NCBI GenBank assembly: GCA_029239235.1
Contig: JAQZBD010000056.1
Span: forward strand, 1-45,091
Direction of reading: 5' to 3'
From: Herbinix sp.
GTDB lineage: Bacteria > Bacillota > Clostridia > Lachnospirales > Lachnospiraceae
Length of the DNA: 45,091 nucleotides
Shown here: in pieces, positions 1-5,386 of the stretch
Numbering within the stretch: position 1 is the stretch's first letter
Layout of the letters: each line of letters begins with the position of its first letter
Notes under the pieces: model-generated
What the model was told of the DNA's origin: nothing
The model's database searches: none
The model's input: only the letters and a program-made list of their open reading frames with translations
Translations under genes and position numbers: made by a program

Positions 1-193
1 TCTCATCCTCCAGATCACATTCCAGTAGCACAGCTGCCTCACGATGGGATATACCCTTCATTTGACAGGCTTTTTCCAGGATGGCATCAATTAACTCCCT
101 GTTATCCTTATTTGCTTTTGCATATTCTATAGTCTCTAAGATTTCCTCATGACTAATAAATTCCTCTGCTTTTTTTGACATTACATCATACAT
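1..193 (-). CDS. hydG: [FeFe]-hydrogenase maturase HydG, N-terminal fragment cut by the window edge
   Basis: The reverse strand reads an open frame of 64 codons running off the left edge. It starts at an ATG with AGGAAG five bases upstream and begins MYDVMSKKAEEFISHEEIL. A second stretch, REAAVLLECDLEDE, is typical of the HydG N-terminus ahead of the radical-SAM barrel. HydG (known family) cleaves tyrosine to make the CO and CN ligands of the H-cluster of [FeFe]-hydrogenase in the cytoplasm. The radical-SAM cysteines lie beyond the window, so catalytic integrity cannot be judged. It lies 104 bp downstream of hydE on the same strand, the usual maturase pairing, and is probably co-transcribed with it. 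The assignment rests on recognition of the N-terminal sequence plus the neighbour. Confidence 0.85.
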   Translation of the reverse strand, partial: MYDVMSKKAEEFISHEEILETIEYAKANKDNRELIDAILEKACQMKGISHREAAVLLECDLEDE

Positions 194-297
194 ATTATCT
201 TCCTGCCTTTCTATTTGAGATGAACTATCCTGCTATCTGTTGCAGGATTTTAATCGGCTTAAGTACATGATTCAAATTACATTTCTGATGATCCATT

Positions 298-1353
298 CTA
301 ATATGTTAATCTTTGATAGTCACCACGGTGTACAGCCAGCTCATAGCCTATATTCTTCATTCTACGATCCAGACAGAAGCGACATTCTGCTGCCTCATCT
401 CCGGTACAGATCTTATTATCATAAAGCTGATAATTCTTACGGACAACGGTAGGGGATAGGTTTGGCATTACCACATTCGCTCCTGACAGAATTCCCTGTT
501 CTCTTCCGTTAGGATTAACAGTACCAAGTGCTGTGGTGGAAGGAATCAATGCATTCGGCAGCATCAAACGCAAAATACTGATAAAGAGCAATGTTTGTTC
601 CATCGTACCCTTGGTTTCCTCTGCAAAGGGAGTTTCATGATGCGGAAGAAAGGGGCCGATCCCAACCATCTCAGGATCAAGTTCTTTTAAGAAGAATAAA
701 TCTTCTACCAGATTCTCAGTCGTCTGGTACGGAGAGCCTACCATAAAACCTGCTCCAACCTGGAAGCCAATGTCCTTTAGATTATTTAAGCACTGCTTCC
801 GGTTCTGAAGGCTTAGATTTTCCGGATGCAGCTTTCGATAATGCTCGTCATTTGCTGTCTCATGCCTTAGTAAGTATCGATCCGCTCCAGCCTGATAGTA
901 TTTTAAATAGCTTTCATAGCTCTTTTCACCGATGGATAATGTAATTGCACAATCCGGGTAGTCTGTTTTAATTTTCTTAATAATCTCTACCATATCCTCA
1001 TCGGAATAGGTGCCATCTTCACCGCCCTGAAGGACGAAGGTACGAAATCCAAGCTCATGACCTTGTCTGCAGCAATCCAGTATTTGCTCCTTTGTCAAAC
1101 GGTAGCGTTCTACGTTCTTGTTACTCCTTCGAATCCCGCAGTAGTAACAATCATTTTTGCAATAATTCGTAAACTCAATTAATCCCCTGGTATAAATATT
1201 ATTTCCAAAATGCTTCTGAGCTGTTTCTCTTGCCCGCTCCCTAAGATACAGGGTATCCTCTTCAGAGATGGTATTGATTAAAGTCAGAAACTCCTCTTTG
1301 CTTAATATTCTTTCTTCTTCCAATTTCTTAATTAGACCTTTCACTTCTTCCAT
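298..1353 (-). CDS. hydE: [FeFe]-hydrogenase H-cluster radical SAM maturase HydE
   Basis: This 351-residue protein has the usual HydE length. The radical-SAM cluster motif C-X3-C-X2-C is at residues 65, 69 and 72 (CKNDCYYC), and a second cysteine set C-X7-C-X2-C is at 316, 324 and 327, matching the accessory cluster site seen in some HydE proteins. HydE belongs to the biotin synthase-like radical-SAM barrels and helps assemble the dithiomethylamine-bearing diiron subcluster of [FeFe]-hydrogenase. The start ATG has AGAGGT five bases upstream. The gene is followed by hydG and preceded by a promoter, a structured leader and an intrinsic terminator, so expression is probably controlled by premature termination. 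No hydF or hydrogenase gene is visible here. Confidence 0.95.
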   Translation of the reverse strand: MEEVKGLIKKLEEERILSKEEFLTLINTISEEDTLYLRERARETAQKHFGNNIYTRGLIEFTNYCKNDCYYCGIRRSNKNVERYRLTKEQILDCCRQGHELGFRTFVLQGGEDGTYSDEDMVEIIKKIKTDYPDCAITLSIGEKSYESYLKYYQAGADRYLLRHETANDEHYRKLHPENLSLQNRKQCLNNLKDIGFQVGAGFMVGSPYQTTENLVEDLFFLKELDPEMVGIGPFLPHHETPFAEETKGTMEQTLLFISILRLMLPNALIPSTTALGTVNPNGREQGILSGANVVMPNLSPTVVRKNYQLYDNKICTGDEAAECRFCLDRRMKNIGYELAVHRGDYQRLTY

Positions 1354-1376
1354 GCATTACCTCTTTCCGATTCATC

Positions 1377-1599
1377 CATCAAAAAATCCCCGTACCTAGA
1401 AAGGCACAGGGATAGCTATCGAAATCCTTAGCTCACTGATATCAGAAGAATTACCTTAATTCATCTCGCAGCTTTATAAGCTTGAGATCCTGCAGGTGTC
1501 ACATCTTTAATCACAAAATAAGGGATCAATATATTCTAATCTGTCGCCTTCTCACTTGGGCGTACCCTCGTTGTCAGAACGAATATTTTTGTTATTTAT
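1377..1599 (-). promoter_or_regulatory. Structured 5' leader RNA of hydE, candidate riboswitch or attenuator of unknown class
   Basis: The transcript predicted from the 1606-1634 promoter runs about 220 nt before an intrinsic terminator and then hydE. On the minus strand several helices can be drawn: an outer AUAUUC/GAAUAU helix near the 5' end enclosing a CGCC/GGCG hairpin, an AUCUC-AGCUU/AAGCU-GAGAU hairpin in the middle, and AGCUA/UAGCU just before the terminator. I do not recognise the consensus of the TPP, FMN, SAM, cobalamin, lysine, glycine, purine, c-di-GMP, THF or T-box classes. It could also be an independent small RNA. Structure followed by a terminator 27 nt before an ATG is seen; ligand control is inference. 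Confidence 0.55.
1381..1413 (-). terminator. Intrinsic terminator in the hydE leader
   Basis: On the minus strand a 12-bp stem (ATCCCTGTGCCT with AGGTACGGGGAT, including G-U pairs) closes a 4-nt loop and is followed by six T. It sits between the hydE promoter and the hydE start, which fits attenuation rather than simple gene-end termination. Confidence 0.8.
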
Positions 1600-1605
1600 T
1601 TAACA

Positions 1606-1634
1606 ATTATAATACATAATTCCTGTTTTGTAAA
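1606..1634 (-). promoter_or_regulatory. Sigma-A type promoter for the hydE leader
   Basis: Minus-strand TTTACA and TATAAT are separated by exactly 17 bp. Transcription would begin near position 1599, upstream of the structured leader. Confidence 0.7.
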
Positions 1635-1664
1635 TGTATTTCTCTGTCTTTTTGATCAATTTTA

Positions 1665-2030
1665 TCATTTAGCATTTTCTACAAATTGAATCTTTAAACC
1701 ATTGGGATCATGCACATAGATAAATTTAACCATTGGGTTAGGAGAGAAGGGTCCTGCCAAAATAGCAATTCCTTTTTCCTTCAAAGTATTCGTAAATTCC
1801 TCCAAAGACTCTACCTCAAAACCAAGAGAAATATCTTGTCCATAGCCCAATTCTCTTTCTCCACCACTGGTCATTAATTCAATCTCTGTTTCTCCATCAC
1901 CCAAGAATACAATCTCTCCTCCGGGACCAGCGTTGAATCTTCTATGCTCCTTTAAGCCTACTACTTCTTTATAAAATGTTAGAGATTGTTCCAAGTTCTT
2001 TACAATAATCGTTGTCCATAAAAATTTCAT
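1665..2030 (-). CDS. VOC (glyoxalase/bleomycin resistance-like) family protein
   Basis: A 121-residue single-unit vicinal oxygen chelate protein. It opens with the typical strand and helix (TTIIVKNLEQSLTFYKEVVG) and ends with the usual PNGLKIQFVE strand; length fits one beta-alpha-beta3 x2 unit. Family members are small metal-dependent or binding proteins, from lactoylglutathione lyase to antibiotic-binding proteins; the exact substrate cannot be told. The start is supported by AGGAGG seven bases upstream of the ATG and by a promoter at 2062-2090. It seems to be a single-gene unit, with the hydE leader promoter beginning just after its end. Confidence 0.85.
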   Translation of the reverse strand: MKFLWTTIIVKNLEQSLTFYKEVVGLKEHRRFNAGPGGEIVFLGDGETEIELMTSGGERELGYGQDISLGFEVESLEEFTNTLKEKGIAILAGPFSPNPMVKFIYVHDPNGLKIQFVENAK

Positions 2031-2061
2031 CTTCGTTCCTCCTAATGCTTATTATTATTCT

Positions 2062-2090
2062 ATTATAATCCTTTCCATTTGATTATTAAA
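2062..2090 (-). promoter_or_regulatory. Likely promoter of the VOC gene
   Basis: Minus-strand TATAAT lies 17 bp downstream of TTTAAT, about 30 bases upstream of the start codon. The -35 is weak. Confidence 0.45.
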
Positions 2091-2157
2091 CTAGGTGTAT
2101 GAAAAATTTAGAAATTATATTGGTTCAGATCCCTAATTCGATTAAAATTGGCTAGAA

Positions 2158-2196
2158 TTAAGGCTTTCCGGAACCCACTGATCCAGAAAGCCTTAA
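2158..2196 (-). terminator. Hairpin downstream of the FtsX-like permease gene, probable terminator
   Basis: A perfect 11-bp inverted repeat (TTAAGGCTTTC / GAAAGCCTTAA) with a 17-nt spacer. The T-rich tract is weak on the minus strand, so termination efficiency is uncertain. Confidence 0.45.
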
Positions 2197-2279
2197 CTGT
2201 TCTACTTATTTTTTCGACTTCTCATCTAATTACATAACCGTAAAAAGCACATGATGTATTTGGGGCATGTATGACTTTT

Positions 2280-4637
2280 TTAATATTCCTTTATTAGATC
2301 TATGGCAGAGATTTTCTTGATTCGTCTAGCCATTAGAATTGATACCAATAATGAAAAGACTGCTAAAAAAGTGACGATACCAACACTCCAAAGAATTGGT
2401 ATTCCTAGGCTTAGCTTTCTAATCCCAATGGAATAAAAGCATGCCAGCCATACACGGTCTACATAAATTTGACCAAGAATTCCACCTGCAACCGTGCCTA
2501 ACAAGATTGTGGGCAATAAGCTATAGGAAATCTGCAGGGATAATTGTCCCGTTGTATATCCAACGGCTTTCAAAATACCTAATTCCTGATTTCTGTGCCC
2601 TATCATTGTCTTTATAATCATATATAAAATAGCTGTTACCAATAACAAAACGATGACACTGATGGTTCCGATCATCATCGTAGTCAAGGGAATAAAGTTT
2701 CCAAACCCTTCTTTTAACATGGATTCCACATCACAATAGGCAGCCAGCTTATCCCCATGAGCTTTTATCATATCCCGGACAAAAGCTGCTGATAATGAGG
2801 TATCCCTTAAATAAACATAGATTGTTAAGGGTTCAAACTGTTCCTTCAATCGCCTGAAACCTTCCGGAGTCAACTCACAAGCTTCACCGCTATAGTTTGG
2901 TGCCTGCAGTAATCCAACAATAAGATATTCAATTTTGTTCTCTCCGTAAGTGACAGTAACCATATCACCAGGCATTAACTTCATTTCTTCAGCCAGCGCT
3001 GATCCTAAGGTGATCTCATTGTCATGTAGTGGAATCCTTCCCTCATAACACAGGTTGATATCCAATTTATCATAATCCTTTATCACAAATGCGGCGGTAC
3101 TCAGATTATTGATCATTACATTTTCCGTATCGTAGTAAAGTGCTTTTTCAACATCCGGGTTCTCCTGCAACTCACCAAGCATCTCTTCGGCCTGTTCCTT
3201 CGTGAAAGCTTTCAACGTTACTGTTGCATTTTCCTCACTCATAACCTCAATAAACCGTTCCGGCCGAAGGACAGAATTGAACATACCGCTTCCTGAATAG
3301 ATTCCGGCAAAGGTCATTACAGATAAAATAATAAATAAGAAGATATTTTGTTTTATACTATCAAAGAAATTCTTTGCAGCTAAGGCAACGTGAATCTGAC
3401 ATTTTGCTTTCGATAAAGGAAAGAAATTCCTCTTAAAATTATGATGTTTGATACCATTTCTCAGCGCCTCTATGGCATGAAGCCTGCGAATCTTACCTGC
3501 CGATAATAATGTCGTCACCACTACTAAAACCATAATCACAGACATAACAATGGCTGAAGACATGACGTCAAAGCCTTGTTTCCAACTCAGACCTGCGAGT
3601 TGTTCAAACACACCCTCCACCTTAGGTAAACCCAGATATGACCCAAAGATTCCAATCGGTATAAAGATTGCCGCTAAGAGAATATAAGGAAATACCACTG
3701 ACAGCAGCACCTGCTTGCTTATATATCCAACCGCTTTCAGAATACCCATATTCTGCAGCTCTTCCTCGATGCTGCTTTTAATTCGGAAATTAATTACCAG
3801 CATCGTAATAACCACCAAAATCAGAGAAAATGCTACCAAGACCGATGCTACAATGGTTGCAGTTATGGTTCTGTTACGTTGGTTTAACTCAAAATAGCCA
3901 TAGGTGTATTCATAAGGATAGGATAATTTACCGGACAGATTTTTTACTAGCTCTGTAAATACCTGCTTTCCATCCTGTCTATCTGTCAACTTGATGCACA
4001 AGGTTGATGCATGGGTATTTTCATCAATACTATCATACATCCTTTTAAAATCATCCCTAGGCAGGTAAATCCCCATATTTCCGCAATTATTATTGCCATA
4101 CATGATATCTTCAACAAAGCCGGCAATGGTAAAATTGTAGGTAGTGTCACCAGATACAAACTGATACCGATCACCGATTTTGCATCCATTCGCCTTAATC
4201 CAATAGGAAAGATAGATGGGATTCTCGACATTCTCAAATACCAAGGTATCTCCTATTGGCTTGATTATATTCATGCTATGGGCTTCATTCATGTTAAAGA
4301 AAATATGAGTTAGGGTATTACCCGTATCACCATAGGTGGCTGAACCGGATAGCATAATATTTTTCCTGGTTTCAACCTGTGAAACCCCAGCTAACGTCTC
4401 TGTCTGAGCAGCCAAATCCTCCGACCAGTCAAAATCGAACATGGTATAAAATACGTCAGCACAGTTATATTGCTGAAACTTCTTCTCGTACATCTTACCA
4501 AAATTTAATATCGTGATTAATCCCATACTGAAGATCGCCGCTGCAATTGCAACGATGAAGCAGAAAGAAATATATTGTCCCCTGTTCTTCCTGAAATAGT
4601 AACCCAGGAATAACGTATATTTTCTCATAATTACCAC
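2280..4637 (-). CDS. FtsX-like (MacB/BceB-type) ABC transporter permease
   Basis: A 785-residue membrane protein with a repeated FtsX layout. It has an N-terminal helix near residues 22-47, a large extracytoplasmic domain, three helices around 255-385, another single helix near 430-450, a second extracytoplasmic domain, and three C-terminal helices after about residue 650. Both halves carry the ELGILKAVGY-like coupling motif (MGILKAVGYISKQ and LGILKAVGYTTGQ), the mark of FtsX/MacB permeases. The start overlaps the upstream ATPase gene by seven bases, so the two are translationally coupled. Such exporters move lipids, peptides or antibiotics, or work mechanically on cell-wall enzymes; the cargo is unknown. 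The kinase/regulator pair encoded upstream suggests induced envelope defence. Confidence 0.9.
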   Translation of the reverse strand: MVIMRKYTLFLGYYFRKNRGQYISFCFIVAIAAAIFSMGLITILNFGKMYEKKFQQYNCADVFYTMFDFDWSEDLAAQTETLAGVSQVETRKNIMLSGSATYGDTGNTLTHIFFNMNEAHSMNIIKPIGDTLVFENVENPIYLSYWIKANGCKIGDRYQFVSGDTTYNFTIAGFVEDIMYGNNNCGNMGIYLPRDDFKRMYDSIDENTHASTLCIKLTDRQDGKQVFTELVKNLSGKLSYPYEYTYGYFELNQRNRTITATIVASVLVAFSLILVVITMLVINFRIKSSIEEELQNMGILKAVGYISKQVLLSVVFPYILLAAIFIPIGIFGSYLGLPKVEGVFEQLAGLSWKQGFDVMSSAIVMSVIMVLVVVTTLLSAGKIRRLHAIEALRNGIKHHNFKRNFFPLSKAKCQIHVALAAKNFFDSIKQNIFLFIILSVMTFAGIYSGSGMFNSVLRPERFIEVMSEENATVTLKAFTKEQAEEMLGELQENPDVEKALYYDTENVMINNLSTAAFVIKDYDKLDINLCYEGRIPLHDNEITLGSALAEEMKLMPGDMVTVTYGENKIEYLIVGLLQAPNYSGEACELTPEGFRRLKEQFEPLTIYVYLRDTSLSAAFVRDMIKAHGDKLAAYCDVESMLKEGFGNFIPLTTMMIGTISVIVLLLVTAILYMIIKTMIGHRNQELGILKAVGYTTGQLSLQISYSLLPTILLGTVAGGILGQIYVDRVWLACFYSIGIRKLSLGIPILWSVGIVTFLAVFSLLVSILMARRIKKISAIDLIKEY

Positions 4638-5386
4638 CCCATTTCTGTTAGGAAGGCCATCAAATTTAATCTACGTGATTCATCCTCCTTCTGGTAATCT
4701 CCAAGAATACATTCACCGCAGACCTGCCCATCCTTCAGATAGATAACCCGGTTACCGCGAATCGCCGTCTTAAGATCGTGAGTAACAGCCACAATACTCT
4801 GACCCTCCCGGTGAAACTCAGAGAAAACGTCCAGCACCGCTTCCGAATTACTGGAATTTAGTGCTCCTGTTGGTTCGTCTGCGAATAAGATGCCCGGCTT
4901 ATTGATTAAGGCTCTAACAATTGCTATCCTCTGCTGTTCCCCGCCGGATAATTGAGATGGGAATTTTTTTTGTAATTCCTCCGTTATATTTATCTTAGAA
5001 AATAATTCTTCTGCCGTTTGGACTACATTGTTCTTTTTCTTATTCACCAGCAGCCCGCTGGCTAAAACATTATCCATAACACTCATTTTATCAATGAGAT
5101 ATATCTGTTGAAAGACAAAGCCACAGTTCTCCCTTCGAAAGACCGCCAGCTCATCCTCACTGTACTTAGATATTTCACTGTTCCGATATAAGATCTGGCC
5201 TAGGGTGGGTTTATCCATGCCGGACAGACAATACATTAGGGTAGACTTGCCAGCCCCGGAGGAACCCATTATGATTGTGAAATCTTCTTCATATATCTCC
5301 AAATCCAGATTTTTTAGAACATGCTGCTGTACGCCGCCATTGGAAAATGTTTTACATAGCTTTTTTGTTGATAATATCGTTCTCAT
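4631..5386 (-). CDS. ABC transporter ATP-binding protein (MacB/LolD/BceA type)
   Basis: This 251-residue ATPase has Walker A GSSGAGKST at residues 41-49, Q-loop FVFQQIYL, signature LSGGEQQR, Walker B ILFADEPTG, and the switch histidine in AVTHD. The A-DEPTGALN form is typical of the MacB/BceA group that partners FtsX-like permeases, and the partner gene overlaps its 3' end. The gene starts 169 bp after the histidine kinase gene and has its own upstream region with a direct-repeat box, suggesting separate control by the neighbouring response regulator. The transported molecule is not determinable. Confidence 0.92.
   Translation of the reverse strand: MRTILSTKKLCKTFSNGGVQQHVLKNLDLEIYEEDFTIIMGSSGAGKSTLMYCLSGMDKPTLGQILYRNSEISKYSEDELAVFRRENCGFVFQQIYLIDKMSVMDNVLASGLLVNKKKNNVVQTAEELFSKINITEELQKKFPSQLSGGEQQRIAIVRALINKPGILFADEPTGALNSSNSEAVLDVFSEFHREGQSIVAVTHDLKTAIRGNRVIYLKDGQVCGECILGDYQKEDESRRLNLMAFLTEMGW

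Follow-up and report, generated by a model that had tools for sequence, protein, structure and literature searches.

A conserved leader RNA in Clostridia, predicted to act as an OFF-type transcription attenuator of [FeFe]-hydrogenase H-cluster maturation genes

The H-cluster is an unusual Fe-CO-CN cofactor assembled by HydE, HydG and HydF. We know of no established sensor by which cells could tell whether they need it. A structured leader before hydE raises the question of whether an RNA could fill that role. The leader lies on contig JAQZBD010000056.1 (GCA_029239235.1, Herbinix sp.), the 45,091-nt stretch of DNA that was analysed as a whole; we call it the window, and coordinates below refer to it. 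We consider it probable (roughly 0.8) that the leader acts in cis to attenuate transcription of the H-cluster maturation genes, in an OFF-type arrangement. The conserved structure, the association with particular genes, the competing pairings and the folding of the window's unfinished leader into the antiterminator by default were all computed; that an effector exists, that it turns the genes off and that the purpose is feedback we infer.

Read along the minus strand, the promoter is followed by the Rex-like palindrome and the 45-nt hairpin; a variable RNA stretch of about 120 nt then leads to the terminator, behind which lie hydE and the beginning of hydG. An earlier note on this DNA had placed a consensus promoter before the maturase genes, and it is there (1606-1634; -35 TTTACA at 1634-1629, a 17-nt spacer, -10 TATAAT at 1611-1606). 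Its score of 11/12 is the best among 19 sites in positions 1-5000, where 15.5 sites are expected by chance, and a comparable -35/-10 pair stands at the equivalent place in leaders of the window's genus. Judging from the -10 element, transcription would start near 1599. The strong terminator with U6 that the note had described is likewise present at 1380-1413 (minus strand), as a stem-loop of 12 pairs and a loop of 4 (1413-1386) followed by a six-T tail (1385-1380). The leader does sit directly before hydrogenase maturase genes: hydE, the [FeFe] hydrogenase H-cluster radical SAM maturase, occupies 298-1353 on the minus strand (TIGR03956, 607.6 bits, E 6e-183), and hydG, of which the contig end leaves only the start, follows at about 1-193 on the same strand (translation MYDVMSKKAEEFISHEEILETIEYA..., read by eye). 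A hydG-like open reading frame is also next after hydE in the genomes G001-G003. The claim of a structured leader of about 220 nt held as far as folding goes (z = -2.52; equally good folding in 2/200 shuffles), but the conserved parts are the terminator and, at the other end, the promoter with roughly the first 60 nt of RNA. A gene for a glyoxalase-like small protein (1665-2030, minus strand), with only sub-cutoff matches in NCBIfam, ends just upstream of the leader promoter.

The palindrome TTGTTAAATAAATAACAA (1589-1606, minus strand) overlaps the -10 element and the start site. Rex, which responds to NADH/NAD+, has the operator consensus TTGTTAANNNNTTAACAA, and the window palindrome matches 13 of its 14 positions, which none of 100 shuffles equalled; by sequence, the window leader thus carries a putative operator palindrome of the Rex regulon in its promoter. 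The palindrome recurs in 14/14 aligned leaders of the genus, at 12-13 of 14 positions. PMC6391272 gives the Rex operator as TTGTGAANNNNTTCACAA and reports validated Rex control of hydG in Caldicellulosiruptor bescii. The first gene of the hydG operon in that species carries the annotation of a CopG-family regulator, and we would take it to be, possibly, the small putative regulator TM1266 discussed below. The presence of the Rex-like operator over the -10 in every aligned leader of the genus, together with the C. bescii precedent, might suggest that the leader is only a Rex-regulated promoter followed by an inert structured 5' UTR, the terminator being a leftover of a small RNA or of a transcript that started upstream. 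Rex control acts at the DNA level. The hairpin, however, is common to leaders from most of which the operator is missing: over all 81 leaders, the palindrome reaches at least 11 of 14 positions in 37 and p<=0.05 in 27. Nor would an inert UTR keep the covariation and arm complementarity described below, and we consider this explanation very improbable.

The attenuator reading begins with the hairpin (1541-1585, minus strand), a putative aptamer that matches our covariance model R2 at 60.9 bits. Its core consensus in the genus leaders is CUGAYRACRAGGGUNCGCCCRAGUGRGAAGGC, with the promoter and TTGTTAAATAAATAACAA or a close variant before it and the terminator after it. In the window, P1 comprises 1581-1579/1547-1545 plus 1577-1576/1549-1548, followed by the middle AC/GU pairs (1571-1570/1555-1554), a tandem RA/RA and P2 (1567-1565/1560-1558). 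RNAalifold, unaided, recovered P1 (Y-R, G-C, U-G, a bulge, C-G and U-A), the middle AC/GU and P2, with the tandem RA/RA between the latter two, from A3, a MAFFT alignment of 25 cores that was not fitted to the model structure. With our own version of the pairing, A3 has 20 double-sided cells versus 8.1 when shuffled; a measure of further pair types in A3 was no better than shuffles (412/500). A4, in which 81 cores are fitted to the covariance-model structure, has 98.9% of 747 cells paired, as against at most 52% in slid versions. It holds 68 double-sided changes versus 18.6 when shuffled, and its covariation score was reached by 0/500 shuffles and its number of pairs with double changes by 27/500, in controls that ignore or only partly respect relatedness. 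The outer P1 pair is U-A in place of C-G in 8/18 families, and P2 has A-U in place of G-C in 4/18. A conserved, structured 5'-leader domain with covariation, as in a riboswitch, is therefore found, under controls that are not phylogeny-aware; the earlier note had proposed looking for conservation and covariation upstream of hydE in relatives, and both are present.

Several structural candidates were rejected. An outer extension of P1 (A3 columns 3 and 4) was dropped, with 14 and 11 of 25 sequences unpaired. The CUGAUGA-like start of the core recalls a hammerhead ribozyme, which was ruled out by eye as there is no GAAA after stem II. A K-turn with sheared GA pairs was also ruled out: the AC/GU pairs right beside the RA/RA tandem covary, so that no three-nucleotide bulge is left for it.

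With Rfam 15, no family reached its gathering threshold anywhere in the window, nor on the element in 36 sources (the window and 35 loci, of which L034 is the window again). The 6S RNA that the note had named as an alternative likewise gave no match on the element with the whole library, any 6S model included. A permissive threshold brought up only PyrR (E=1) and the L10 leader (E=4) in the window, both outside the conserved hairpin. Such weak matches, with PyrR at 0.3 in locus L110, a further L10 leader match at 0.47 and anti-hemB at E=0.015 in L044, could mean that the element belongs to a riboswitch or leader class already described, from whose Rfam model it has diverged too far to be recognised. 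The L10 match of L110 does span the hairpin, but those to PyrR and anti-hemB lie off it, on the terminator side; the PyrR attenuator model (RF00515) scores 21.1 bits in the window and 22.3 bits in L110 against a gathering score of 54, and the controlled genes have nothing to do with pyr or ribosomal operons. Together with the lack of any family at gathering score in the 36 sources, this leaves divergence from a known class exceedingly improbable.

The RNA extends well beyond the window. When the 34 genomes of the genus were searched at the DNA level, 12 (L001-L012, among them the window's own) had a match of about 7e-7 or better, and one genome (G001) has two leader copies, one before hydE and one before hydG. 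Covariance models of the core placed the RNA in 13/299 family genomes (R1) and, at E<=0.01, in 34/392 order and 41/391 class genomes (R2), samples that overlap in part. The 81 aligned core matches come from 18 GTDB families of Clostridia, with family labels entered by hand from the genome tables. By a comparison made by hand, HydE is present in 38/41 RNA-bearing class genomes; it is in 257/391 class genomes overall, and the RNA occurs in a minority of HydE genomes (38/257, class sample). A mobile or phage origin was considered and rejected, as blastn of the leader in phages and plasmids was empty and viral contigs held no relative of hydE. One genome, G168, has three RNA copies (L036, L047 and L048); two identical leaders stand before TM1266-SBP on different contigs, and the third before an apparent TM1266 remnant.

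The association with H-cluster genes is close. The order and class searches yielded 57 different loci. Leaving aside the window itself, which was among them, we examined 56 by blastp against our own reference proteins or, for L057, L062, L063, L065, L072 and L107, by reading; L056 and L058 come from genomes that the family sample had also given. Fifty-three lie upstream of H-cluster genes; the other three (L081, L082 and L083, 25-28 bits) are chance model matches in coding regions. The nearest recognised downstream gene is TM1266 in 45 loci (then hydE, hydG or hydF) and hydE in five, and in three it belongs to an NMT1-type ABC permease/ATPase/SBP operon. This count leaves out weaker matches without a locus, 4 from the order and 11 from the class; by coordinates, the match in G751 lies ~0.45 kb upstream of hydE. 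L270, L273, L287, L291 and L292 are false model matches with no hyd context, and in L273 (E 0.022) a tRNA-like D-arm, recognised by eye, resembles the 3' half of the core, which we take as chance. At L042, a Clostridiales-1 RNA (RF01699, 128.7 bits; 1251-1404, minus strand) adjoins the hairpin and is probably an unrelated neighbour.

An exact IUPAC pattern was also scanned against one genome for each of 84,980 species, where by our own estimate ~0.4 chance matches are expected. Of the 62 loci that it returned, 55 matched TM1266, hydE, hydG, hydF or SBP by blastp; three more (L127, L147 and L159) have hyd context by sequence, giving 58/62 in context. L115, L117 and L169 are too short for their context to be read, and L120 (Larkinella rosea, Bacteroidota) is a chance match inside an open reading frame. 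The scan is not fully independent of the model searches, because the pattern derives from the same alignments and some genomes overlap.

How the hairpin might act is suggested by its 3' half (AAGGC and the following bases), whose sequence complements that of the terminator 5' arm. In the window, the predicted antiterminator pairs AGAAGGCGACAG (1541-1552, minus strand), which is also the 3' half of the hairpin, with CUAUCCCUGUGCCUUUCU (1398-1415, minus strand), which overlaps the terminator 5' arm. By one criterion, a terminator-like structure is present in 67/81 aligned leaders; among the 14 without, one can be seen by eye in five (L037, L058, L090, L100 and L105). In L153 and L090, which are Ruminiclostridium-type leaders, the core is followed by GGTGGAG and then ATG, possibly a short upstream open reading frame, and the terminator has an interrupted T tail. 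The core-arm duplex of a leader averages -13.8 kcal/mol, compared with -11.5 when arms are swapped between leaders, and is stronger than the swapped mean in 50/67 leaders; a median of 21% of swapped arms pair at least as strongly as the leader's own. Partition functions, run on transcripts of 64 distinct leaders ending at the terminator loop, gave 10.3 expected core-arm pairs versus 7.0 with shuffled arms. Fifty-four of the 64 leaders exceed their own shuffle mean and 30 beat at least 19 of 20 arm shuffles, a modest signal. At least five core-arm pairs are expected in 53 leaders and fewer than five in 11, with about 0-2 in L007, L010, L036 (second copy), L045, L059, L065 and L072. In these 53/64 leaders, an expression platform mutually exclusive with the hairpin domain is predicted, as in a riboswitch.

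In the window leader cut at the terminator loop, the antiterminator is the minimum free energy fold (-46.7, versus -40.1 with the sensor hairpin forced). With the unfinished transcript favouring the antiterminator, the default looks ON, so that an effector would have to pay several kcal/mol for the hairpin. In the full leader, the sensor hairpin with the terminator (-59.7) is favoured over the antiterminator (-51.8), and the free minimum (-59.9) keeps the terminator, with the 5' part paired otherwise than in the sensor hairpin. Stabilising the hairpin should mean termination (OFF), because its 3' strand is predicted to pair with the terminator 5' arm. We therefore envisage that transcription would run from ~1599 under the Rex-like operator and that the first ~60 nt would fold into the conserved hairpin, with its large internal loop as sensor. 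When the sensor is not stabilised, its 3' strand (AAGGC...) would pair with the terminator 5' arm, forming the antiterminator and leaving the genes on; an effector that stabilised the sensor would withhold the 3' strand, the terminator would form and hydE-hydG would not be transcribed. At L036 no terminator was found; there the core is placed at the TM1266 ribosome-binding region, a layout that would also be OFF when the core is bound. The earlier note's reading of a riboswitch or attenuator of no known class thus gains from conservation upstream of hydE, covariation, a hairpin empty of Rfam matches and a predicted antiterminator and terminator. Of its further suggestion, control of H-cluster assembly by an RNA sensor, the predicted switch at hyd genes stands, whereas the effector and ligand binding are putative. 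The note had mentioned neither the Rex-like operator nor TM1266, which emerges as a serious candidate effector.

Given an attenuator, there is about an even chance that the effector is a small molecule bound directly by the RNA, as in a putative riboswitch. A compact, highly conserved internal loop fits this, and if the ligand were a product or intermediate of the pathway, it would make sense that synthesis genes and an ABC importer are controlled together. The other candidate is TM1266 (TIGR03959 and PF21699). PyrR causes termination by binding the leader in pyr operons, and TM1266 might do the same at the hairpin, which would make the TM1266-hyd operon autoregulated. Its predicted fold (about 80 residues, pLDDT 96.1) is the NikR sensor domain without a DNA-binding domain; the best PDB matches of the model by Foldseek are TM1266 itself (2nzc) and then NikR C-terminal, nickel-sensing domains (2y3y, 2bj3 and 1q5y). 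NikR has in addition a DNA-binding domain, which is a ribbon-helix-helix. We know of no ACT/NikR-sensor domain that binds RNA, which counts against TM1266.

The case for TM1266 rests on co-occurrence. The RNA was never found without a TM1266 gene in the 75 RNA-bearing genomes chosen as stronger or context-confirmed from 93 (18 with weak or false matches were left out), compared with 64/80 among the first 80 HydE genomes without detected RNA, although HydE genomes often have TM1266 in any case and the 75/75 is inflated by adjacency. In 23 of the 75, however, the RNA is not beside TM1266 and the gene is encoded elsewhere in the genome. For the class sample alone the figures are 30/30 and 64/80 (p = 0.004). 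With stricter filters off, none of 26 HydE genomes without TM1266 has an RNA match at E<=0.01. Among 36 Lachnospiraceae HydE genomes searched in this way, 25 have TM1266, and the RNA is confined to these, in nine at E<=0.01 (p = 0.022), or ten counting G081 (E 0.012), where it adjoins TM1266 (p = 0.013); a second match in G057 (E 0.008) is false. Where TM1266 is unlinked from hydE, the RNA precedes hydE in 4/11 genomes versus 0/11 without TM1266 (p = 0.045, grouped by hand). All these p-values ignore phylogeny, and the sets are small. The RNA-negative label is also imperfect and the RNA is probably more widespread than the model shows, because G670, G680, G697 and G698 have weak matches (E 0.04-0.5) beside TM1266; the only match under 0.01 in that comparison, in G692, has no hyd context. 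Furthermore, in five genomes of the genus the TM1266 locus itself has no RNA match. Taking its place as nearest gene in most loci into account, we regard termination by TM1266 as a real possibility that falls somewhat short of even, and lean slightly towards the riboswitch. TM1266 is beside an ABC SBP in four of these five genomes, the exception being the window's own, which also has a partial second TM1266 match (G000:C80:2393-2503; 50 bits, below cut-off).

Either effector would have precedents. In pyr operons a leader hairpin, antiterminator and terminator occur in copies before separate transcription units, with pyrR often the nearest gene, and the RNA described here resembles them in all three respects, with TM1266 as the small putative regulator; it differs in its genes, and RF00515 does not match its conserved hairpin. 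A second mechanism class, the OFF-type metabolite riboswitches that work through intrinsic terminators, combines a compact loop with a competing antiterminator. The likeness extends here to a compact conserved internal loop, a competing antiterminator and the control of an importer together with genes for cofactor synthesis, whereas no Rfam class matches and the RNA co-occurs with one protein, TM1266. By analogy, the RNA may work like an OFF riboswitch or a PyrR-type attenuator and is a candidate member of either. A search of the open literature, supplements aside, found no RNA of such a kind among the titles and abstract openings listed, and the main texts of five RNA discovery papers (PMC11109978, PMC8632094, PMC7266159, PMC2864571 and PMC8040213) do not mention hydE or hydrogenase. 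The motif may possibly have been listed anonymously before, for example in supplements. On computational evidence, it appears to be a new, unregistered class of OFF-type attenuator or riboswitch for [FeFe]-hydrogenase cofactor assembly.

We suggest tentatively, and with more doubt than confidence, that the hairpin monitors H-cluster assembly itself, either unaided or together with TM1266, which would then be a new kind of RNA-binding protein that senses a ligand, and that it shuts down the HydE/G/F pathway; the signal might be, for example, an Fe-CO-CN intermediate, a dithiomethylamine precursor or a substrate of the NMT1-like ABC transporter. If so, feedback control of H-cluster biosynthesis at the level of RNA would, to our knowledge, be without precedent, and a job would have been found for TM1266, a putative regulator without a DNA-binding domain. 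A compact RNA almost exclusive to hyd genes offers a direct handle for in vitro screening against intermediates and TM1266, and could serve as a read-out for engineering hydrogen-producing Clostridia.

The regulon defined by the RNA also brings an uncharacterised NMT1-like ABC importer into H-cluster biosynthesis, and the substrate of this importer may be a clue to the effector. In G066 and G079 the transporter is an RNA target at a distance from TM1266-hydE, and two SBPs match PF09084. At L049, TM1266-SBP-permease-ATPase is followed by NuoF-like and HydA-like genes (named by reading), and at L051 (G198) an RNA-controlled SBP is followed by a HydE-like radical SAM protein (4269-5246) with only PF04055 in Pfam. 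Overall, NMT1/THI5-like importers occur behind the RNA or beside TM1266 at L049, L051, L111, L112, L113, L265 and L266, as an SBP that in most comes with permease and ATPase, sometimes far from TM1266-hydE. In G198, a nitrilase-like gene (by reading) also follows the RNA-controlled SBP.
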